Source: a virus. From it: a stretch of DNA of 30,688 bases. The DNA is taken from positions 1 through 30,688 of the IMG/VR virus record IMGVR_UViG_3300005253_000119. One strand, given 5' to 3'. The notes under the pieces were generated by a model. That model made no database searches and was not told where the DNA came from. It saw only the letters and a program-made list of their open reading frames with translations. Below are positions 852 to 30,492 of this stretch, piece by piece (the stretch's first letter is position 1; each line of letters opens with the position of its first letter). A program made the position numbers and the translations under genes.

Positions 852-2390
852 CTAAAGTAAGTTAAAGTAATCTAAACCATCTGGAGGAGTAGGTGCCGGC
901 TTGGGTGCTGGCTTGGGTGGAGTAGCTTCACTAGATAGAATATCCCTTTGGAACTGGTTCAAGTCAGGGGTAGCCTCAGCGGCAGAAATGGAGGCAGGTG
1001 TAGTACCATAGATTCCAGCCAGCGCATCGGTCCTTGCTTTCTTGTATGCCTCCAACTCTGAACCTGATAACTCACCTTTGAGTGCTCGTTCCCTAAGGGC
1101 TTTGTAATCCTCTAATGACATAACTGAGGAGGGCACAGCTCCTGAAGGTTGTCTACTACCGATAGGTAAGACAAAGGTAGTTGAGAATCCACCCAGTGTT
1201 AAGGTAGCTTGATAAACAGCCTGCCCCCCAATGCCCGCAAAGAAGGTCCTAACTATTCCAGAGGCACGGAGGAGGGCATCAGAAGGAAATACCACAGGTA
1301 CTGTTATACCCACAGACCTGATATTTCCAACCACGCCTGCTTGGTAACCAATTAAGAGAATTGAGGAGTAAAAAGCCACTATACTAGGGCTATATGAATT
1401 GCCTGTATCGTACTCAAAAGAACTTACTACAGACGAGGATATAATCCCGCTCGTAGAAATAGTCATACTTGCTATATAACCATCATTATCTGCACCTGTA
1501 TAGCCAACCACATAAACATTTCCTTTTACATGTATAATATCAGGTGTGAGAAACAAAACAGCAGCGGTATCAATTACCAAAGAATCAGTCACTGTGGCTG
1601 GTATGACTCCCGCGGCACTAATCTCAACAGTAAATACACTCAAGTTGGTCGTTCCCTGGGATGCTATAGCAAAGAAATCTCCTGAGACGTGTATGAATGA
1701 AACGTCCTGACTATCCGTACTAAACGTGAGACTATCTATCTTAGACTTGGTAATTGTCCCATCGTTAGCTATAGTAAAGGAGAATACCTCCCCATCTATA
1801 TCATTATTACTGTAAGCTATAGCGTATGTTGTACCACTTACCTTGATGATAACAGGGTGGTATCCTTTAACAGTGTCAAATTCCCAACTGTCTACTACAG
1901 GGTCGGTTATAACTCCCACTGTACTAATATCCACAGTCACCACAAAACCGTCACTATTATTTCCTAAGTAAGAGATGGCATATATGTCTCCAGAAACCTT
2001 GATGATAATAGGGTGAGCACAGTTAAGGCCGTCAAACTCCAGTGAATCTACTACTGCATTCCCTATAACCCCCGCAGGGGTAATGGTAACAGTAAAAAGC
2101 CATCCATCAAAGCCAGCACCACGACAAGCTATGGCATAGTAATCCCCAGAGATATGCAGAATGCAAGGACCATTACAAAAGGTTGTCTCAAATTCCAGAG
2201 TATCTATTAGTGTGTCTCCAATAACCCCATCAGAATCCATAGTAAATGTGCTTATAAAACCATCTATACCAGTTCCTGAGTAGGCAATCGCATGGACATC
2301 TCCACTTATATGAATAACATAGGGAGCATCACCTTGTGCAGTATAGTTTGCAAAAGTATCTAGGATACTGCCAAAATCCCCGTTGCCCAT
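852..2390 (-). CDS. Virion protein with seven ~47-50-residue repeats (predicted beta-propeller)
   Basis: A 512-aa protein. Residues about 22-370 consist of seven consecutive repeats of 45-50 residues. Each has the pattern (I/V)IxxSGDxYAIAYxGxxxDG, then a strand such as FTVxIS, then GVI, then a closing strand like VVDSLEFDT. The seventh copy is degenerate. Seven short all-beta repeats with alternating strands suggest a seven-bladed propeller. A following Gly/Thr-rich domain leads to a helical segment (EDYKALRERALKGELSG) and a Pro/Ala-rich tail ending in GLDYFNLL. The start ATG shares one base with the stop of the upstream gene (TAATG), implying translational coupling. By position it is a tail or adsorption component, perhaps binding host-surface glycans, but that function is inferred. 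Confidence 0.65.
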   Translation of the reverse strand: MGNGDFGSILDTFANYTAQGDAPYVIHISGDVHAIAYSGTGIDGFISTFTMDSDGVIGDTLIDTLEFETTFCNGPCILHISGDYYAIACRGAGFDGWLFTVTITPAGVIGNAVVDSLEFDGLNCAHPIIIKVSGDIYAISYLGNNSDGFVVTVDISTVGVITDPVVDSWEFDTVKGYHPVIIKVSGTTYAIAYSNNDIDGEVFSFTIANDGTITKSKIDSLTFSTDSQDVSFIHVSGDFFAIASQGTTNLSVFTVEISAAGVIPATVTDSLVIDTAAVLFLTPDIIHVKGNVYVVGYTGADNDGYIASMTISTSGIISSSVVSSFEYDTGNSYSPSIVAFYSSILLIGYQAGVVGNIRSVGITVPVVFPSDALLRASGIVRTFFAGIGGQAVYQATLTLGGFSTTFVLPIGSRQPSGAVPSSVMSLEDYKALRERALKGELSGSELEAYKKARTDALAGIYGTTPASISAAEATPDLNQFQRDILSSEATPPKPAPKPAPTPPDGLDYFNLL

Positions 2391-3616
2391 TACAAACCCC
2401 TCGCATCATTTACTTCTACCCTATCATACAGTTCTACTCTAGCATCCATCGGGATTATTACCCTTGTGCCTCTTATCTGGTCTTTTAATTGCCAGCCCAA
2501 CTCAGCAGCTTTATTTCTACATTTCTCTGCGGTATCTAATCCTGTTTCCCACAACATCCTATCCGTACTCCCCGATGCTTTAACTTCCATGAACGGCCCA
2601 TCATAAGTTGCAAGAGTAGCAGGAGATACCCAGCCCGAAAAATGGTCGGTATCATACCAGTGACCTGTTACAGTGGGGTATCCTGTGATAGCATCCTCAC
2701 CCCCATATACTTCAATGTGATTTGGAATCATATTTAACCTTCTATTCTCTGCCTCGTAAAAAGGATGCCCGTCAGCATTACTGGAATAGTATGTCACATC
2801 TGCCGTATCTGATGACTGGGGATACATAATTCTGAAAGCTAAATCTGCCCTTGGAACAAGAATGCAATTAGTTAGTTCCAAGAGGCTTCTGATTACATCA
2901 CCATAAGTCTCAAAGTACCAAGGGGAACCATCGTTAATTGTACGTAGTAACTTAGTATTGTCGGAAGGGAATGGGATAATAGAACTGATTTCCCCATCAT
3001 CTTGAGCCCCTAAATCATCTAAAGTAAAGGCTAACCCAGTCTGAGCAAATAATAAGACTTCAATAATATATTCTAGTACCCCATAAATAGTTTTACCTGT
3101 TAAGGCAGATATGGTATTGAGTTCGTCATACTTGTATAAGGGTATATCAGAAAAAGGTGTGCTTTCAACAAGGAAGGGTTGTTTATTAAGCACTGCACCC
3201 CATACCCCTTGTAATTGAAACAGCGTATAGAGTTGAGGTAGAGAGCCTTTCGGAGCTCCTGAAATGTCCGATTGCCGCATTATCCACATTCTAGGAGCTA
3301 CGGCCCCTGCTGCTGTGTCCCACAAGATACCTGAAGAGGTATTAAGTCCCCATCCTAAGTCTACATAGTATCCTGTCAGGTCAGTAGGAACAGCCCTGTC
3401 ATAATTGGAGAGAAGTATTATACCTGAATCGTTTTCTCTCTCTTCTATCTGTTGAACATGCTCTAAGCGGTTAGTGGTTACAGTTGGATCAAAAGAATAG
3501 TCATGTGTAGTTCCACCATCTTTTGAGGTGAAGATGCAACGCACAGCCGGCGCATAGCTTCCTACAGGATATCCCGAAGTTTGTGCGGTAAGAAGTGCTG
3601 CCGTTAATGTCCGCAT
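2390..3616 (-). CDS. Tail/baseplate-hub-like structural protein
   Basis: A 408-aa protein without a signal peptide or membrane segment. The N-terminal ~120 residues are beta-rich, with 'ERENDSGIILLSNYD', wording I associate with phage tail-tip proteins that decorate or cap the tail. The middle contains LLELTNCILVPRADLAFRIM and a beta-rich C-terminal part rich in Tyr and Trp. This resembles in style the baseplate-hub or tail-associated proteins of siphoviruses and podoviruses, but I cannot name a family. It lies between an adaptor-like protein and the propeller protein, and its stop overlaps the next start by one base, so the two are probably made together. The start at 3616 is preceded by a purine-rich GAGAGAG. 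Confidence 0.5.
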   Translation of the reverse strand: MRTLTAALLTAQTSGYPVGSYAPAVRCIFTSKDGGTTHDYSFDPTVTTNRLEHVQQIEERENDSGIILLSNYDRAVPTDLTGYYVDLGWGLNTSSGILWDTAAGAVAPRMWIMRQSDISGAPKGSLPQLYTLFQLQGVWGAVLNKQPFLVESTPFSDIPLYKYDELNTISALTGKTIYGVLEYIIEVLLFAQTGLAFTLDDLGAQDDGEISSIIPFPSDNTKLLRTINDGSPWYFETYGDVIRSLLELTNCILVPRADLAFRIMYPQSSDTADVTYYSSNADGHPFYEAENRRLNMIPNHIEVYGGEDAITGYPTVTGHWYDTDHFSGWVSPATLATYDGPFMEVKASGSTDRMLWETGLDTAEKCRNKAAELGWQLKDQIRGTRVIIPMDARVELYDRVEVNDARGL

Positions 3617-3630
3617 ATATATATCTCTCT

Positions 3631-5349
3631 CTAATCACGTGGGAATCTCTGAGATGTGGGATACCCACCATAAGCCCTAAGTTCTGCTTCTACCTGGGCT
3701 AGTTCTCTTCTGCCCCATTCCTCGTATCTTAATCCGCCCTGAGAAACTTGAAGTCTACTACTGACAAGTCTCATATTAACGATAGCCTCTTCCACTTTAT
3801 TACTTCCTGCCCTTAGTTCACCGCTTGCTGACTGAAGATAAGAGGCATTAGTAGACAGTCTGGTATTAGCCTCCATAACATAGCCTTGACTCTCCTGGAA
3901 GTAACCCTGAGCCACTCTTAGCTGGGCTACAGTCTGGTCAATGTAAGTTCTGTTTGCCCCCATATCAGTATTAGCTTGCTCAAGACTTGCCTGTGCCTCT
4001 CGGGTTTTCGCCATACCAGCATCTACTTCTCTAGCTGCTGTCCCTAAATCTACATTGGCATTATTAAAGTCGGCTGACGATTTCTGGAGAAGTCCCTGTC
4101 CTGAAAGGACAAACCCCTGCGCAACACCCACATCGGAGGCAGCTTGTCCCATATATTCCGCTGCGCCACCACCTACGGGTATGGTATTGATAAGTGGACT
4201 ACCAGAAGCTAGAGCAGTTTTCCCCAATGTCACCTCAGTAACAGCCAAGTCGATGTCCGTCTTGGCTTCGCTTATAGCCGTAACCCCTAAAGCAATGGCA
4301 GTCCTGGCAGATGCAATATCGGTTAAAGCCTGAGTTACCCGTGCAGCCACAGTAGCGATTGCTGTTTGGGCTAAGGTAATGATTGCAGGAATCTTATCAG
4401 CTTCGGTTCGACCAGCAGCCACATCGGTAGTAGCTTGAGTAAGCCTTGCTCCAATTTTATCTATTTCTACATTAGCGGTATCAAGTATAGCCGAGATTTT
4501 AGCAGACTCAACTCTTCCCGAAGCTATATCAGCTATCCCTTGTGTAATACGGGCAGCCACAGCAGCAATAGCCGTAACCCCTAGAGCTATCGTAGCTATC
4601 GCTGTATTAACCTGAGCATAAGACTTTGTAGCTTTAGAGATACACGCCTTAGCTGCTAACCACCTTGCCAGATAATCCTCTAATGGAATATCTAAGGTAG
4701 AACCTGTTAAGGAAAGAGTTACTACTGCACCAAGAGCATTAACTTGAGTTATGGGTGGCCATATACTCAAGGTTGCCTTGTTAGTAGCGATGGTTGCCAA
4801 AGCGGTCACATAGTAGACTGTAGAGTCTCCTGTAATAGCTACTGTAGTCATCTCCTCAATAGTCAGAGTCCCTAGAGCCTCAACGTCAATGGTAACATCC
4901 CCAACCGCAGTCGCCACCTCAAGAGTTCCTCCAGTATCAGCAGTGGTTAATACTTTCTGTAATAGATGGACCTTATTCCAAAAGAAGTAAATATCGGCTA
5001 CCGCTGGAGGGCGGATATCAATCTTAATACTTATTACATCACCGAACCGAGTATAATTGCGATATACAGGAGGGTCTTGAGCTGTCAGATATTCCAGCTT
5101 CAAAATACCTAGAAGTCTCCACTTATCACCTGTTGTTAAAGTAATATCTCTGGTATCAGCGACAGTTGATTTGGTTGTTTTAATCTGCCAGGGCTTGAAC
5201 TGAGAAATTCTGGACAAAGCAGAGGGCATTAAAGAGTCTAGTTCAGCAGTGGCAAAGACTGAGTTAGCTGATGGAGGTGAAGGGTCCACTCCGGCATCCT
5301 GTAAGAGGGTCTCACAGTCGTCAATTATTTCCGAATACGTTTTACCCAT
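3631..5349 (-). CDS. Head-tail adaptor/neck-like protein with long coiled-coil repeats
   Basis: A 572-aa protein. Residues 1-60 (TYSEIIDDCETLLQDAG ... SALSRISQFKPW) look like the short helical bundle that opens many phage head-tail adaptor proteins. Residues ~65-225 are beta-rich. From ~226 to ~545 the chain is nearly continuous helix rich in Ala, Thr, Ile and Gln. It includes 35-residue tandem repeats at 266-300, 301-335 and partly 336-370 (each beginning AR[ILV]TQ); 35 is five heptads, as expected for a coiled coil. The C-terminus (residues 545-572) is basic and Tyr-rich. Its position between capsid and tail genes fits a neck or tail-fibre-anchoring protein. The exact role is inferred. Confidence 0.55.
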   Translation of the reverse strand: MGKTYSEIIDDCETLLQDAGVDPSPPSANSVFATAELDSLMPSALSRISQFKPWQIKTTKSTVADTRDITLTTGDKWRLLGILKLEYLTAQDPPVYRNYTRFGDVISIKIDIRPPAVADIYFFWNKVHLLQKVLTTADTGGTLEVATAVGDVTIDVEALGTLTIEEMTTVAITGDSTVYYVTALATIATNKATLSIWPPITQVNALGAVVTLSLTGSTLDIPLEDYLARWLAAKACISKATKSYAQVNTAIATIALGVTAIAAVAARITQGIADIASGRVESAKISAILDTANVEIDKIGARLTQATTDVAAGRTEADKIPAIITLAQTAIATVAARVTQALTDIASARTAIALGVTAISEAKTDIDLAVTEVTLGKTALASGSPLINTIPVGGGAAEYMGQAASDVGVAQGFVLSGQGLLQKSSADFNNANVDLGTAAREVDAGMAKTREAQASLEQANTDMGANRTYIDQTVAQLRVAQGYFQESQGYVMEANTRLSTNASYLQSASGELRAGSNKVEEAIVNMRLVSSRLQVSQGGLRYEEWGRRELAQVEAELRAYGGYPTSQRFPRD

Positions 5350-7646: not shown

Positions 7647-8618
7647 TTAGCTTGCCTGATTAGTGGCAACGAAACCGTAAGCCCTTGCTATTGCCCTTGG
7701 ATTAGCAACGGCGAGCCCCACAACCCACTGCACCCTGTCCCTGAATACCGGGGCATCAGAAACCTCACCCAAGTCGTTTACGGTCATCGGTTCTTGCTGT
7801 ATTCCCCACAGATACATCTTCTCTCCAAACCTGGCAGAGTAGATACTTGTCTCGTCACTTCCACCACTAAGGTCCTCGCTATTGGTGATGACCTCCGTTG
7901 TCTGGTCAACCTTGACTCCTATTCTAAGCAGGGGAGTATCCTGATATATGTTGATTATCCGGCCAAACATATCCTTGTCCTGCCTCAACACATTCTCCCG
8001 CCTAAAACAGGCTTCAAAGGCCAGGTACATCTTTGAGTTCATAAACAGGGCGCTTGATCTATGTCCCACAGTAACATCTATGAGTTTGGAGATATTGTCC
8101 ATGAAGAATTGACGGTCTGTGGTGTCGTAGAGCATTCCCCTGTTCGGAGTGGCACTGCCGGCATCAATGTACTGGTCGGTGAAACCATCGGAATTGACGT
8201 CATCCACACGCATTGACAACCCCTTAAACTCGTCACTTGCCGGGTCTCCGTTGATATACATATCGTTGAACTTAAATGCCATAGCATGAGCTGACATCTG
8301 CCTTTGTGTCTGCCTTTCCGTTGGGTCAGCTTTTACCAGGACGGTATCCACATCTATCTCGTGCCCGAAGATGTATTTACCTTCGATTTTCTGTGCAAAC
8401 GTGCCGGTAGATTCACCGAATGACGCATTTACTTTCCTGGTGCCAACCGTGGGCAAAGTCTCCATGTTAGTTATCTGTAGTGCTAACTGAAGGTTACTTG
8501 CCAATGGCAGTATTTGAGCCAAATTAGATTCCTCAAGAAACCAGTAGGCTATTTCTGCCTGAACTTCCTTACCTTGATTGGCTGATTGGTTTGCATGGTC
8601 TACTAAAGTTACGGCCAT
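7647..8618 (-). CDS. Major capsid protein (HK97 fold)
   Basis: A 323-aa protein. The N-terminal arm is helical (ANQSANQGKEVQAEIAYWF), followed by an E-loop-like beta stretch (VGTRKVNASFGESTG and EGKYIFGHEIDVDTVLV). A spine-helix region follows (QTQRQMSAHAMAFKFNDMYI, then NGDP). Next is a P-domain-like part with DVTVGHRSSALFMNSKMYLA, and the final beta strands contain RVQWVVGLAVANPRAIAR. This arrangement and length are characteristic of phage HK97-fold coat proteins. The gene lies between a coiled-coil scaffold-like protein and a cement-like protein, the standard order. A GGGAGG site precedes the ATG. It forms the capsid shell. Confidence 0.88.
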   Translation of the reverse strand: MAVTLVDHANQSANQGKEVQAEIAYWFLEESNLAQILPLASNLQLALQITNMETLPTVGTRKVNASFGESTGTFAQKIEGKYIFGHEIDVDTVLVKADPTERQTQRQMSAHAMAFKFNDMYINGDPASDEFKGLSMRVDDVNSDGFTDQYIDAGSATPNRGMLYDTTDRQFFMDNISKLIDVTVGHRSSALFMNSKMYLAFEACFRRENVLRQDKDMFGRIINIYQDTPLLRIGVKVDQTTEVITNSEDLSGGSDETSIYSARFGEKMYLWGIQQEPMTVNDLGEVSDAPVFRDRVQWVVGLAVANPRAIARAYGFVATNQAS

Positions 8619-17025: not shown

Positions 17026-17224
17026 CTTTTATCTCCTCTAATAGGGATTGCCAATCTAACCCACTAAACTTTTTATCCATACCCGTAGACCTTAACCATT
17101 CCACCACCTTCTTTAACTGGGCCTCAGCTACGAATTTACATCCATGCGTGCAATCGGAACAATCGCTACTCAGGCATTTGCCACGAAATATATTTTTTAT
17201 CTCTTCCTCAGTTAGTAGTATCAT
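17006..17224 (-). CDS. Small Cys-rich protein, paralogue of the gene at 19973-20188
   Basis: A 72-aa protein beginning MILLTEEEIKNIF. It has four Cys (C17, C22, C25, C29), then a helix with AEAQLKKVVEWLR and a C-terminal segment DWQSLLEEIKDATQ. The N-terminus (MILLxEEEI), AxAQLKKVV and LLEEIK segments are shared with the 71-aa protein at 19973-20188, which lacks the Cys cluster. The start overlaps the portal stop (ATGA). Function unknown; the Cys set may bind zinc. Confidence 0.62.
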   Translation of the reverse strand: MILLTEEEIKNIFRGKCLSSDCSDCTHGCKFVAEAQLKKVVEWLRSTGMDKKFSGLDWQSLLEEIKDATQVR

Positions 17225-18918
17225 ACTTGTTGTCCTCCTTGACTCTGAGCACGTTCACTTAATAACGGAATTATTGGTTGCGCCGGCTTTAATTCTTCAG
17301 GTCTGTTGGGTGTTAATAATCCTTCCATAGCCTGTTTCAATGCGGGTATCATTTGAATTATAAGCATCTTGGCTTGGCTTTCAGCACCTGGTTCCCCACG
17401 TTTGGCATCTTCCAATAATGCCCTGATATTCCTGTCTAACTTAACTAAAGGTGATATTCTCTCATCTTCCTCCCACCTTAACTGTCGTTCATCACCCTGC
17501 CAATCTTCTCTTCGTAAAGTGTTTATCCTGATATCTCTATCGGGTACTAAACCCCTTTGTGCCGTAGCTAATGACTGACGGGCTGCGTCCATTCTAGGGT
17601 CATTGAAGTGATACTTAAACTCAATCTCATATTCACCTTTGAGTTTTGATACATCAAATACCTGATTTCCTAGTTTGAACTCTGTTATCTTTGCCTTCTC
17701 ACAAGCGTCAATAGTCTGCTTAATAAACATATAAGCCAGGTCTTGCTTCAAAAGCCCCCGCGTGTTTAGTCTCGGTAAAACGATATTACCTTGCTCTTGG
17801 GCTTCCATCATAATCTGAGTAGCGGTTGGTGGATTTGCTATATTACGGTATATTTGGCTTGTGCCCCTTTGCATCCTTTCTTGAATCATCTGATACAATC
17901 GGTCAAATGCTGCTTGAAGTTGCCCTAATGGCATAAGCTCATACCCACCACCAATAGGCATTTCGTTTACCACCCCTGGAGCATTAAGTTCATCAACTGA
18001 TTCACCAGGGTCTGAGTTAGGTCTCATATGCTCTGGCGGGATTTTCTTTTGCAATGCTTGGTCTACCACTTTAAGGCTGAGACTTTGAATAATAGATGCT
18101 ATCCTCTCAAGTTCCTTAAATAGTAAACGGATTAAAAATATTCCCGACTCACCCTGATATTGGATAGTATTCTCATCCTGAAGCATTGAACCCATTGGCA
18201 CCATGCGATAGACTGCTGGCACATAACCTAACTTATTAGGCAACTCTTTAAGTAATTTCCCACCGATTGCATTTCCACGTACTAAGTTTGCACCAATCCA
18301 TATCTGGTCAGTATCCCTTGATAAAATACGGAGTATCTCATTATTCGTACCAGATGATGTATTCCCCAACGCTTCAGGGTGCTCTGCAAGAACTTTACTT
18401 TCAGACCGATAAAACTTGCCTGCTAAGTAATATAGCCCCTTATTATCGTTTTCAGGGACAACAAACCTGGTATCCCATGGTGTTATATCAGTGATAAGCA
18501 CGCCATCCTTAATAGTGAAGTAACAATAACTGGATGCCCTACCTCTCCTGAATGTCTGCTGGTCAATAAATGGGTCAAAGGGAAACATGCCTTTGGAAGA
18601 TAATACTTTATCCGCTTCTGTAAATCCTACCCCGATAAAGCGTTCAACATAAGCAGTATCGAACCTCTTATCTTCCGATGTTACTTCTACCTGTTCAATG
18701 GCTGAGTTGAGTTCTGTTTCCACTTCCCATGCGAAGGTAGCTATATCATTAAGGAGAACATGAACACTATTGGGTATCTCTTTGTCATCAGCATCCAGTA
18801 ACTTATCGGTTAGACTGATCATGTTGAAGAAATCTGCATCAGTCCGCATCCTCTCAAATAGTAATCCCCACTCCCCATACTTCTTAGTTGCTAGTGCTCT
18901 ATAGTCTACTTCAGCCAT
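17221..18918 (-). CDS. Portal protein
   Basis: A 565-aa protein. The N-terminal half is mixed alpha/beta with ITPWDTRFVVPENDNKGLYY and GKFYRSESKVLAEHPEALG. The C-terminal half is helical (LYQMIQERMQRGTSQIYRNI, LPRLNTRGLLKQDLAYMFI), with a stem-like helix pair and a charged end (RNIRALLEDAKRGE). Length, helical stem with GTSQIYRN and position between terminase and scaffold/capsid fit a phage portal, the dodecameric ring at the packaging vertex. The strong TAGGAGG before the ATG supports the start. It ends in an ATGA overlap with the next small gene. Confidence 0.8.
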   Translation of the reverse strand: MAEVDYRALATKKYGEWGLLFERMRTDADFFNMISLTDKLLDADDKEIPNSVHVLLNDIATFAWEVETELNSAIEQVEVTSEDKRFDTAYVERFIGVGFTEADKVLSSKGMFPFDPFIDQQTFRRGRASSYCYFTIKDGVLITDITPWDTRFVVPENDNKGLYYLAGKFYRSESKVLAEHPEALGNTSSGTNNEILRILSRDTDQIWIGANLVRGNAIGGKLLKELPNKLGYVPAVYRMVPMGSMLQDENTIQYQGESGIFLIRLLFKELERIASIIQSLSLKVVDQALQKKIPPEHMRPNSDPGESVDELNAPGVVNEMPIGGGYELMPLGQLQAAFDRLYQMIQERMQRGTSQIYRNIANPPTATQIMMEAQEQGNIVLPRLNTRGLLKQDLAYMFIKQTIDACEKAKITEFKLGNQVFDVSKLKGEYEIEFKYHFNDPRMDAARQSLATAQRGLVPDRDIRINTLRREDWQGDERQLRWEEDERISPLVKLDRNIRALLEDAKRGEPGAESQAKMLIIQMIPALKQAMEGLLTPNRPEELKPAQPIIPLLSERAQSQGGQQV

Positions 18919-21131: not shown

Positions 21132-21302
21132 TTACGTGCTGGCTTTATGTAATTCCTCAATCTCTTCTTTAGTTATGAGGTATAAATACCCATTGTCAGT
21201 AAAAACCCCATATGTTGGGTCTGATGTATGCCAGTTTTCAACCCTTGTAATTCTACCATCGTCTACTACAATACCCCTATTTCTCCAATCAAGAACTTTC
21301 AT
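21132..21302 (-). CDS. Small protein of unknown function (56 aa)
   Basis: A 56-aa ORF: MKVLDWRNRGIVVDDGRITR, VENWHTSDPTYGVFTDNGYL, then YLITKEEIEELHKAST. The first 45 residues are predicted beta strands (an SH3-like barrel is possible), followed by a short acidic helix. Its AGGAGG site is made by the last TerL codons, and the ATG is three bases after the TerL stop, so it is probably translated with TerL. Confidence 0.55.
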   Translation of the reverse strand: MKVLDWRNRGIVVDDGRITRVENWHTSDPTYGVFTDNGYLYLITKEEIEELHKAST

Positions 21303-21305
21303 TAT

Positions 21306-23390
21306 CTACCTCCTAACTAATACCCTTCTTGGGGTAGTTGTGCGATAGCCGGGATTATCCACTACTGTCTCGGGTGTGAAGTCGCTCAAGATAGACCTTT
21401 CACAGTTATGAACTAGAATACCATTCGCATAATATTCAGGGACATCTTGAACAGAGAGATTATAGACAGATGCCTGACCTCTAGGGCTTACGCCTAAGCA
21501 TCTCACGGCGGTTTGCGGCTTTACATCTTCCCGAACAGAACTTGCTGTGCGATGGCTCAATAGTTGAGTATTCCTGGCTACAATGGAGGCAGACTTTGAG
21601 AACTGGCAGCCTATTTCCCCATAATCTCTTGGCGAGATTAGCTCGCCCTTCATCTGTCCTCGCCCACAATCTATGCCCAACTCTGGCGAGAGGACGAATT
21701 CTGGCAAGGTGCTCAAGGTCATAGACGTGCCCCCCCATATGCTCTGACATATGTAAGCCATTGCCCTTACATTCAAAGTTAGAGAGTTCGTTATGAGATG
21801 AGTCATCGTCCTTATGGTGGATAGTATGCCCAGTAGGTATTTTCCCATAGGCATCTTCCCACATAACTCGGTGGAGAAGTCCCTTTGCTGACCTGAAATA
21901 CATTCTGTCGGTGCGCCGTTTGGCTTGCGGGTATCTGTGATACTTAGTTCCCTTGTAGATAACTGTTTCTCTTTCCATACGTCCATTCTATCATTGTATC
22001 GCAGACAAGTCAATGGAACCCAACCTTTACCCTTAACAAAGACAGGATGGTCAGCAGTTCCTACCAGCTTAGAGCCATCTGAAAATGAAGCCTCAAATAC
22101 TTCAGCATTGCTTTGTGTCAGTCCGCTAGCAACCACTGGCTGATATCCTTGCCTCATAGCAACTAAATCTCCAACCTTAACACTTTCAATTGGCTTCTCC
22201 CCAGTAATTGTTTTTATCATTGTTCCAGCAATAAGGCAAGCCATTAAATGGAATTTAGCCTCTTGATCTATTTTCTCCCCCTTAAAGACAAAACTAAATT
22301 TCTCCCTTACATAATTGCTGAGGTCATTAAAGATATATACTTTGTTAAGCCGGTGCATGCCCTGAACCAGTTTAATCTGTAACGCTTTGTCTAAACTGTG
22401 TTTAGGTTCACTAACCGGCCATCCCTCAGAGGTATATGCTTGTCTCTCCCCTGTCTCCTGATGATTACCACCTACCCGCTTCAATACATTCCGTCCTTCA
22501 GTAATTGTCTTGAAAGCCTGCACATGGTCGTGAATACTCATCTCCGACCCTGGCCAATACTCTTGAAAACCAAAGAAATCACCAGTTGCGGGGCTACCTG
22601 CAAAGAATAATCCCGCTGCATTTACCCTCCCGAAGTCGTGCCCTGAATATATAGGCCAGCTTTTATCAACATCAAACCTTGGAATCAAGCATATCTTATC
22701 ATCAAAGGCACTGTAGACTAAGCCTTCCAGCCCTTTCCATAGTCCGAGAACATACCTATCTTTATAGACTCCCTCAAACTCAGCTAGACGCTGCTTATAG
22801 TCCTCCGGTAATAACGGATTGTCATAACTGGAGGCTTGGAATACATCCCCCTTATGCTCACGAAAGAACATGCGATAAAGATAATGTGTCGGCGGACCAG
22901 GATTAGTCGCTGCAAATATCTGGTGAGGAAAGCCAGGTAATCTTAACCTGCCCTCTAGCATCTGCCAGTCATCCTCTGTAGTTTCTATCGCCTCATCAAT
23001 GCCTACGAAGCCAATACCACCAGCACCAAGGGAACCGAGTTTTAATGGGTCATCCAGCCCACCAAAGAGGATTTGAGAGCCATTAGTCAGTGTAATTAGC
23101 CCATCTGATTTATTGTAGGATGCTATAAGTTCTTTAGGACATACTAACTCCAGAAATGTCTTGAGAGTTGATAGCCCTATGGTAGCTCTAACCTTTCGAC
23201 AGATATAGCCGAAGTTACCCTTGTGGTCCAAAGACAGCTTTAGAGACTTAGCACAGAGAGCTAGGGTTTTGCCGGCGCCAAAGGCACCAGAGAATAAAGA
23301 CCTTGAAGCCTGAGATGCCACGAACTCATCTTGCGGTTTGTTGATTGGCTCCCACACTAATTCAACCTTAGCTTTAGTCGCTGTTACCAT
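21306..23390 (-). CDS. terL: Terminase large subunit (TerL), interrupted by an intein
   Basis: A 694-aa precursor; removing the intein (residues 385-662) leaves 416 residues, the usual TerL size. The ATPase has a Walker A-like SGAFGAGKT (34-42) and a Walker B-like GFVGIDEA (127-134). The ATPase end ATNPGPP lies at 161-167. The RNase H-like nuclease starts at IYSGHDFGRVNAAG (247-260, Asp252 the probable metal ligand). The C-extein is only 32 residues (CERSILSD...). The join FHLMA-CERS corresponds to the last nuclease motif, where other TerLs have DxxDAxRY-like sequence. TerL drives ATP-dependent packaging and cuts DNA at the portal. The start at 23390 lies inside the end of a 52-aa gene, preceded by a GGAG site. 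Confidence 0.9.
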   Translation of the reverse strand: MVTATKAKVELVWEPINKPQDEFVASQASRSLFSGAFGAGKTLALCAKSLKLSLDHKGNFGYICRKVRATIGLSTLKTFLELVCPKELIASYNKSDGLITLTNGSQILFGGLDDPLKLGSLGAGGIGFVGIDEAIETTEDDWQMLEGRLRLPGFPHQIFAATNPGPPTHYLYRMFFREHKGDVFQASSYDNPLLPEDYKQRLAEFEGVYKDRYVLGLWKGLEGLVYSAFDDKICLIPRFDVDKSWPIYSGHDFGRVNAAGLFFAGSPATGDFFGFQEYWPGSEMSIHDHVQAFKTITEGRNVLKRVGGNHQETGERQAYTSEGWPVSEPKHSLDKALQIKLVQGMHRLNKVYIFNDLSNYVREKFSFVFKGEKIDQEAKFHLMACLIAGTMIKTITGEKPIESVKVGDLVAMRQGYQPVVASGLTQSNAEVFEASFSDGSKLVGTADHPVFVKGKGWVPLTCLRYNDRMDVWKEKQLSTRELSITDTRKPNGAPTECISGQQRDFSTELCGKMPMGKYLLGILSTIRTMTHLITNSLTLNVRAMAYICQSIWGGTSMTLSTLPEFVLSPELGIDCGRGQMKGELISPRDYGEIGCQFSKSASIVARNTQLLSHRTASSVREDVKPQTAVRCLGVSPRGQASVYNLSVQDVPEYYANGILVHNCERSILSDFTPETVVDNPGYRTTTPRRVLVRR
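21405..22238 (-). other. Intein within TerL (278 residues)
   Basis: Residues 385-662 of the TerL precursor. Block A is CLIAGTMIKTITGEKPIES with nucleophile Cys385. Block B is GTADHPVFVKGKG (TxxH). Block F/G reads VYNLSVQDVPEYYANGILVHN, ending in the His-Asn dipeptide at 661-662, and the +1 residue is Cys663. All splicing residues are present, so it should be active. The region between the N and C halves of the splicing domain (about residues 471-636) does not look like a LAGLIDADG or in-frame HNH domain; instead it overlaps an out-of-frame HNH gene. It is inserted in the nuclease active-site motif of TerL, a typical place for an intein. Confidence 0.9.
21481..21978 (-). CDS. HNH homing endonuclease nested out of frame inside the TerL intein
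   Basis: A 165-aa protein in the -1 frame relative to TerL. The core HTIHHKDDDSSHNELSNFE (residues ~54-72) has the HNH-nuclease pattern HxxHHxDxDxxNNxxxNL in altered form, preceded by LHRVMWEDAYGKIP and followed by GLHMSEHM. The C-terminus has a probable zinc knuckle, CLHC (128-131) and FCSGRCKAA (~146-154). It starts at the ATG at 21978 (MERETVIYKGTK), just after the intein's N-splicing half, with a stop four codons upstream; only a weak SD precedes it. It ends before the intein's C-splicing half. It would cut inteinless terL genes and spread the intein. Translation could be by internal initiation or a -1 frameshift. Confidence 0.78.
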   Translation of the reverse strand: MERETVIYKGTKYHRYPQAKRRTDRMYFRSAKGLLHRVMWEDAYGKIPTGHTIHHKDDDSSHNELSNFECKGNGLHMSEHMGGHVYDLEHLARIRPLARVGHRLWARTDEGRANLAKRLWGNRLPVLKVCLHCSQEYSTIEPSHSKFCSGRCKAANRREMLRRKP

Positions 23391-29376: not shown

Positions 29377-30492
29377 TCATGCTTGCCCCTTCTCTATGGC
29401 TGCAATAGCCTTTAATATTGGGTATATCTGCTGTGGCACCACCGCATTGCCTAAACATCTAAGTCTGTCCACCCTATTGGGAATCCCATGAGCCACTCTA
29501 CCCAGTTCGGGTTCAACTGCCCAGTATTCTTCCCCTCTAATTGCGATACCCTGTCCTCTAACTTCCGGATACCGCCCCCTGGTGTTAGTCTCTCCATCTG
29601 ACCGCCCCCGGTTGGTGTCTTTGGTGTCGGCCACAATACCTGTTTCCTCAGATTCGCACAGCCCCCCTTGTTCGCTTCGGGTGTCCTCTCCTCTGGCTTT
29701 CGTATGTCCATTCTCATATCCATCACGCTTGGAGTAGCCCACAATGAAGATTCTATCTCTCCGGTGCGGGGCATTGACGGCACAAGCTGGAATAAGAAAT
29801 GATGTCGTTTCATAGCCCTGACTCTCCAGGTCAGATATACAATCGTTGAACCCCATATTGAGGAGTCCAAACACATTCTCTGCAACGCACCAAGTGGGCC
29901 TGATTTCTGATATGACCCTAAGCATTTCTGGCCAGAGCCAACGGTCATCATCCTTGCCTTTTCGCTTCCCGGCATTAGATACAGGCTGGCAAGGGAATCC
30001 TCCTGTAATAAGGGTAATTGGGGGGATTGTTCCTGTTGCCTTGGATTGGTCATCTGTATCTGCTGGTTGATTGTCTGGGACTGGAGAACTAGCTTGCCGT
30101 CTGGTTGAAGCCGATATGCTCTCTCGCCCACCTTGGCTGGCTGCCCGTCCTTCGTGTAAAGAGTCTCCACTTTCGCCCCTGCTTCGTTGGCTTGTGGTGT
30201 TCTCCATAGTTTCTTCACCGCCGTTGCTAACCCATCCCCTGCCTTCGGCGATATCCCTTTCCGATTGTTGTTCCCCTCGACCGAAGGCGTTGGCCAAAGC
30301 TTCTTCGATTGTTTCTTTGTTGACATCTTTAATATCTCCTATTATTGGCACCTGAGGCCAATGCTTTTTTAATACCTTCTGACAGTAGGCATTGTTCTCT
30401 ACCATCAAGACTGTTGTAAAGCCAGCCCATTCAGCGGCTAAATCAATCCCACCTATGCCGGTGAAGAGGCTAATGTGGGTTAGCTCTACCAT
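29377..30492 (-). CDS. DNA cytosine-5 methyltransferase (Dcm-like)
   Basis: A 371-aa C5-MTase. Motif I is LFTGIGGIDLAAEWAGF (SAM binding, 9-25). Motif IV is GGFPCQP (164-170) with catalytic Cys168; motif VI is ENV (205-207); motif VIII is PHRRDRIFIVGY (242-253). Motif X is LGNAVVPQ (347-354). It transfers a methyl group to cytosine C5, and with no restriction enzyme here it is probably an orphan that protects phage DNA or alters regulation. Unusual points: a low-complexity insert (about 70-155) between the motif III region and motif IV, and a low-complexity target-recognition region (about 255-320). Both coincide with the nested ORF. A GAGGTAGG site supports the start. Confidence 0.9.
   Translation of the reverse strand: MVELTHISLFTGIGGIDLAAEWAGFTTVLMVENNAYCQKVLKKHWPQVPIIGDIKDVNKETIEEALANAFGRGEQQSERDIAEGRGWVSNGGEETMENTTSQRSRGESGDSLHEGRAASQGGRESISASTRRQASSPVPDNQPADTDDQSKATGTIPPITLITGGFPCQPVSNAGKRKGKDDDRWLWPEMLRVISEIRPTWCVAENVFGLLNMGFNDCISDLESQGYETTSFLIPACAVNAPHRRDRIFIVGYSKRDGYENGHTKARGEDTRSEQGGLCESEETGIVADTKDTNRGRSDGETNTRGRYPEVRGQGIAIRGEEYWAVEPELGRVAHGIPNRVDRLRCLGNAVVPQQIYPILKAIAAIEKGQA
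29451..30326 (-). CDS. ORF nested out of frame in the methyltransferase; candidate overlapping gene
   Basis: A 291-aa ORF in the +1 frame relative to the methyltransferase, wholly inside it. AGGAGA (30335-30340) lies 8 bases before the ATG, an ideal spacing. The product is hydrophilic with four LWxTP motifs (residues 10-14, 40-44, 195-199, 231-235), a KKLWPTPSVEGNNNRKG start and the C-terminus NPNWVEWLMGFPIGWTDL (272-289). I recall similar LWPTP and GFPxGWTDL sequences in phage proteins annotated as hypothetical or methylase-related, but cannot check. The same DNA encodes methyltransferase residues 56-347. Translation has not been shown; the alternative is a chance ORF in a constrained sequence, which the motifs make less likely. 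Confidence 0.65.
   Translation of the reverse strand: MSTKKQSKKLWPTPSVEGNNNRKGISPKAGDGLATAVKKLWRTPQANEAGAKVETLYTKDGQPAKVGERAYRLQPDGKLVLQSQTINQQIQMTNPRQQEQSPQLPLLQEDSLASLYLMPGSEKARMMTVGSGQKCLGSYQKSGPLGALQRMCLDSSIWGSTIVYLTWRVRAMKRHHFLFQLVPSMPRTGEIESSLWATPSVMDMRMDIRKPEERTPEANKGGCANLRKQVLWPTPKTPTGGGQMERLTPGGGIRKLEDRVSQLEGKNTGQLNPNWVEWLMGFPIGWTDLDV

Follow-up and report, generated by a model that had tools for sequence, protein, structure and literature searches.

The question raised by this locus is how an intein can carry a homing endonuclease that lies outside the intein's own reading frame. In the usual description, an intein retains its endonuclease as a domain read in frame. In the window, that is, the whole stretch of 30,688 nucleotides analysed here from the IMG/VR virus record IMGVR_UViG_3300005253_000119, an earlier note had placed an HNH endonuclease gene in the -1 frame of an intein in the terminase large subunit (TerL), with the splicing halves in the TerL frame. 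ORF calls bear out this layout (Table 1), as do matches of the HNH frame to PF13392 HNH_3 (1.7e-10) and to a PHROG family of HNH endonucleases. The HNH frame is -1 (equivalent to +2) relative to TerL and spans the middle of the intein, and the TerL ORF is uninterrupted over its entire length. The lengths given in the note are correct as well, namely 278 aa for the intein and a computed 694-278 = 416 aa for the spliced TerL. The locus is very probably a mobile TerL intein whose homing endonuclease would be made as a separate protein, from the -1 frame over a dispensable linker, as read from the sequence and the structure models.

Table 1. Features of the TerL intein locus, in positions of the window
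Feature	Position	Strand	Evidence
TerL precursor ORF, 694 aa, stop in span, intein in frame	21306..23390	-	Terminase_3 8.6e-22; phrog_2 terminase large subunit 9.9e-33
TerL N-extein, 384 aa, C-terminal ...EAKFHLMA	22239..23390	-	Intein-free relatives align across junction
Intein, 278 aa, C1 ... HN, then Cys+1	21405..22238	-	Empty site in relatives; invariant residues
Hint N-terminal half, intein residues 1-90	21969..22238	-	pLDDT 90-98; Foldseek hits to solved inteins, gp41-1 first
In-frame linker, intein residues 91-241, open, predicted disordered	21516..21968	-	pLDDT mostly <50
Hint C-terminal half, residues 242-278, ...YYANGILVHN	21405..21515	-	Structure model and Foldseek
TerL C-extein, 32 aa and stop, CERSILSDF...	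21306..21404	-	Intein-free relatives
HNH endonuclease ORF, 165 aa, ATG start, -1 frame relative to TerL	21481..21978	-	phrog_15471 1.3e-17; AF2 mean pLDDT 92
HNH_3 domain core (LHR..IHHKD..N..N..H)	21769..21876	-	Profile match and invariant residues
TAG stop closing HNH frame 9 nt upstream of HNH ATG	21988..21990	-	Sequence
Promoter-like site TTGACT-17-TAGAAT, TG-extended, ends 6 nt before HNH ATG, suggestive	21985..22013	-	

The TerL frame itself matches Hint_2 (5e-6) and Intein_splicing (1e-4) weakly, both below the curated cut-offs. The empty site, the invariant residues and the Hint models support the splicing halves that the note had assigned to this frame. A comparison with intein-free TerL homologues, as the note had suggested, found the junction empty and the sequence uninterrupted: relatives in IMG/VR, 76-88% identical across the N-extein, read EAKFHLMA^CERSILSDF with no insert. 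The exact empty site HLMA^CERS is present in L114, L117, L118, L120 and L121, and two further intein-free relatives (L116 and L119) have Ala at +1. Since these relatives fix the junction, the intein is delimited from Cys1 to Asn278, immediately before Cys+1. C1, T61, H64 and N278 are invariant in an alignment of 46 inteins, and the +1 residue is Cys or Ser in the listed nested loci; two rows from the annotated phage collection were left out of the alignments behind the residue invariance and of the structure models. AlphaFold2 models the first 90 residues and the last 28 (pLDDT 96-97) with high confidence, and residues 91-240 as a low-confidence linker of about 150 aa without secondary structure. 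The top Foldseek matches of the intein model were solved inteins, the first being gp41-1 (target TM 0.87, rmsd 2.0). The insert combines the C1 nucleophile, the TxxH of block B, the terminal N and Cys+1 of a class 1-type Hint intein with a Hint fold predicted to be built from N and C halves, and it is an in-frame insert with intact intein-free alleles at its exact site. It departs from the canonical endonuclease-containing intein, as its in-frame linker is disordered in the model and its HNH lies in the -1 frame. The window copy is also distinct from a split-intein fractured gene, the TerL frame being open between the two halves. A group I intron was considered and rejected, as positions 21200-22500 gave no Rfam hit even with E values up to 1 allowed.

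Among 57 relatives of the HNH protein, H54, H55, D57, N63, N67 and H76 are invariant, and the residues predicted to be catalytic and the putative zinc-binding cysteines of the HNH_3 domain fall on the invariant sites of the relatives. AlphaFold2 also gave a confident model of this frame. A fold search with the HNH found no match below E 0.001, the best being I-HmuI at 0.11, so the family assignment rests on sequence profiles. The second, C-terminal zinc ribbon of most relatives is absent from the window HNH, which also has no Shine-Dalgarno sequence; on these two features the window enzyme might be impaired.

The same layout was found in over a hundred diverse phages. In the first search, four IMG/VR loci shared the TerL intein with the shifted HNH, and the annotated-phage collection added Tetrasphaera phage TJE1, Acinetobacter phage Highwayman and one Rhodobacteraceae phage, at all three of which the annotation reads terminase alone. 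Of a first set of 110 loci, 88 had the HNH nested in the frame seen in the window and 2 had it nested in the alternative shifted frame; 7 were split, 10 free and 3 partial, and none was in frame. Enlarging the set to 162 distinct HNH matches gave 122 nested in the frame seen in the window, 3 nested in the alternative shifted frame and 7 split; a further 9 had one Hint half (6 of them at contig edges), 21 had no detected intein, and again none was in frame. The cyanophage CL131 intein with its in-frame HNH served as an opposite-layout control, in which the pipeline picked up one Hint half along with the HNH. Inspection of three of the one-half loci showed that they, too, are nested in the alternative shifted frame, bringing that group to about 6, and most of these share the TerL insertion site but carry a Hint of another subfamily; one other-frame locus, L111, apparently lies in a gene other than TerL. 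On these grounds, more than one origin of the architecture is probable. The genes that host the nested elements match terminase families, nearly all of them TerL, with the insertion at the DHxxDAxRY region near the C-terminus, which is presumably the TerL nuclease active site. Furthermore, a scan of genome contigs returned a Berkelbacteria MAG contig as the sole relative, itself nested. The out-of-frame HNH in a TerL intein is a recurrent architecture and not a local oddity.

Several of these loci have peculiarities of their own. Two TerL genes (L001, L124) contain a second, different intein beside the nested one. In L103, L110 and L009, TerL contains a split intein, whose halves lie on either side of the HNH gene; for the C half, a plausible ATG with Shine-Dalgarno is present in L103 and L110, and GTG candidates only in L009. 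In L111 and L112, the HNH is nested in the +1 frame of a Hint insert, within a gene that is un-TerL-like and ends near a CRCRW motif. In the region 1600-3700 of L097, the HNH is free-standing, the last part of a Hint N half is still encoded in its other frame, and a second copy of the TerL C-terminus follows the HNH; this locus looks like a decayed nested intein whose TerL 3' end was regenerated.

Selection on the two frames was assessed by synonymous permutation. Over 71 non-redundant nested copies, 0 host-frame stops were observed against 154.7 expected, a total that is conditioned by the definition of the nested class through its open host frame. Free of that condition, 90 of the 97 loci in the 110-locus set that have the HNH between two Hint halves keep the shifted host frame open, and in the remaining 7 it is closed; the median chance of an open host frame is 0.048 per gene. 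The window copy taken alone is mildly unusual, with P(no stop) = 0.13. No avoidance was observed in split relatives (stops observed/expected 7/7.1, 12/10.9, 5/6.0, 10/9.2 and 6/6.2), and in most free-standing relatives the observed stops were close to expectation; L065 and L097, filed as free, have 1 and 0 stops, respectively. Stop avoidance across the relatives thus upholds the claim of the earlier note that both frames are kept and that the linker must stay open. Conservation of the -1 frame at the protein level, which the note had put forward for testing, was confirmed: HNH amino-acid identity exceeded linker identity in 247 of 247 pairs, which are not independent of each other, and in 8 close pairs the differences at HNH codon positions 1/2/3 numbered 102/87/298. 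Because the third position of an HNH codon coincides with the second position of a host codon, amino-acid changes there are borne by the host frame. Purifying selection acts in the HNH frame, and this frame is the conserved one.

An ATG stands at 65 of 70 assigned HNH starts. A Shine-Dalgarno sequence of >=5 nt precedes 26% of the HNH starts, whereas among control ATGs the share is 3.7% (p about 1e-9). Loci of the window's clade have a promoter-like site with an extended -10 element, placed 6 nt ahead of the HNH start codon. Promoter scores >=10 were reached by 6/70 HNH starts against 0/1025 control ATGs, and in the window itself one promoter-like motif was found against 1.1 expected locally. 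The site would fit a leaderless transcript; it stays suggestive because the scoring loci are related and the Hint motif LRYND is specified by the same bases. Alternatively, ribosomes could undergo programmed -1 frameshifting within the Hint N half and make a Hint-HNH fusion, which would leave the endonuclease in the intein product; the relative frame is mostly -1, the direction of common frameshifting, and slippery heptamers lie near a few loci (5 found in 71). The frameshift signal that the note had suspected near 21978 is unlikely, however, in view of the TAG just upstream of the HNH ATG and of the relatives, in which a stop interrupts the HNH frame no more than 30 nt upstream of the start in 37/71 loci and no more than 60 nt upstream in 55/71. 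With no slippery motif common to the 71 loci, a +1-type class existing as well, and the HNH starting mostly at its own ATG with Shine-Dalgarno enrichment, frameshifting is a highly improbable explanation. Barely conceivable is a further reading, in which an indel has put a once in-frame endonuclease domain out of frame and the HNH is now decaying, or in which the layout comes from a sequencing or assembly error. Known inteins do carry an in-frame HNH, as in the CL131 dCTP deaminase (PMC6293099), and the window HNH is short at its C-terminus. Yet 122 distinct loci, including the TJE1, Highwayman and Rhodobacteraceae phage records, share the same relative frame, the HNH is conserved as a protein, and 0/162 family members are in frame; for the HNH family, this reading is refuted. 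The argument in the note that two open frames by themselves exclude an assembly error is weak on one sequence, given the P value above, but its conclusion holds on comparative data, as the layout is shared by independent contigs and phage genome records.

The HNH could also be a packaging partner of the terminase, located near TerL for that reason and not a homing enzyme, and free-standing members of the family do adjoin terminase genes in several phages. Against this, the close TerL relatives L114-L121 have no HNH within 1.5 kb downstream of the junction and the insert is absent from Acba_21; since these do without it, the HNH is not required. Furthermore, the insert is precisely bounded and its flank is co-conversion-like, which leaves the packaging role very unlikely. 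The flank is seen by comparing Highwayman, with the intein, to Acba_21, without it: their DNA is identical over 394 bp upstream of TerL and about 1.39 kb after TerL, all 8 TerL mismatches upstream of the insert lie no more than 165 bp from the intein, and about 12 further bp are changed just after it, including Leu to Cys at +1. Such a tract resembles what gene conversion beside a homing cut leaves, as judged from one pair. Empty alleles together with this clustered 5' tract in a single allele pair are candidate signs of homing. The HNH proteins are more alike (median 41%) than the TerLs carrying them (24%), and nearest neighbours by HNH and by TerL agree in 18/68 cases. The pairwise distances of the two proteins are weakly correlated (0.31), which fits mobility and is noisy.

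Based on these observations, a mechanism is proposed for the mobile intein with a separately encoded endonuclease. TerL would be translated through the intein; the Hint halves, to go by their residues and fold, would fold together, excise 278 aa and join the TerL nuclease domain, so that the linker need only be stop-free and tolerable to the fold. A second initiation at the HNH's own ATG would produce the HNH protein, aided by a Shine-Dalgarno sequence in many relatives and perhaps by a leaderless transcript in the window's clade. As the allele pair suggests, the HNH would then cleave, at the nuclease motif, a TerL gene that lacks the intein. Intein and HNH together would be copied into the cut gene, with flanking TerL sequence co-converted.

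Elsewhere in the window, a second same-strand nested overlap was noticed, in which a 371-aa DNA methyltransferase ORF (29377-30492, minus strand; phrog_363, 2.3e-76) contains a 291-aa ORF in another frame (29451-30326, minus strand; phrog_1008, labelled DNA methyltransferase, 4.1e-39); Paenibacillus phage homologues have two methyltransferase features at the match. A major head protein is encoded at 7647-8618 on the minus strand (phrog_212, 3.4e-46), and several other long ORFs (852-5349, 17221-18918) had no PHROG family match.

Splicing and endonuclease are predicted here to be separate proteins that share DNA, a single segment serving two unrelated products. The amount of endonuclease could then be tuned without altering TerL synthesis, and either protein could be lost without necessarily disturbing the fold of the other. 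The relatives with, without and with a broken overlap form a natural experiment on overlapping genes that shows the codon-choice constraint. Since a single HNH family occurs in free-standing, split and nested form, ideas on how composite mobile elements originate can be put to the test. Such endonucleases are systematically missed because annotation gives the terminase large subunit alone, as in TJE1 and Highwayman. By a slight preference, the broader reading is that a large and previously undescribed class of phage inteins exists, in which splicing element and homing endonuclease are separately translated from overlapping frames. This class would have arisen at least twice, in both shifted frames and in different Hint subfamilies, would be concentrated at the TerL nuclease motif, and would have a linker of about 150 aa selected only for having no stop codon.

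Among known systems, fractured genes of the gp41-1 type have split inteins with an intervening endonuclease. They resemble the present locus in that Hint halves flank a separately encoded endonuclease; the window Hint model is closest to gp41-1, and the split relatives L009, L103 and L110 show that very layout. In the window, by contrast, both halves form one continuous polypeptide, open across the endonuclease gene. Free-standing HNH genes adjacent to terminase genes in BP10, CL2, PAE1 and PhiSTP1 belong to the same HNH family and differ in being intergenic genes of their own, with no intein except the split one of CL2 and no host-frame stop avoidance. The intein in the dCTP deaminase of cyanophage CL131, for which self-excision was shown, likewise houses an HNH_3 endonuclease within a Hint splicing domain, flanked by its two halves (PMC6293099), whereas that HNH is in frame with the intein and the other two frames hold 43 and 54 stops. 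Inteins are common in the TerL of actinobacteriophages, where they are located in the ATPase domain (PMC5050341) and not at the C-terminal DHxxDAxRY motif as here. In the literature searched, largely outside subscription journals, no account was found of a splicing intein that houses its endonuclease in a shifted frame. The authors of the ShiLan domain study (PMC11855218) refer to a preprint by Gosselin et al. (10.1101/2025.01.02.630785), whose subject is the non-canonical architecture of actinobacteriophage inteins and which may describe similar cases, so that part of this may already be described. The nearest precedent is the ShiLan domain itself, in which a methylase carries an HNH read out of frame and has no splicing domains (PMC11855218). 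Both systems have a homing-type HNH in a shifted frame, within an insert that keeps the host frame open, and a sporadic distribution. The ShiLan insert, having no splicing domain, is thought to stay in the protein, whereas the window intein is predicted to have a Hint splicing domain, with its two halves set in the essential host TerL.
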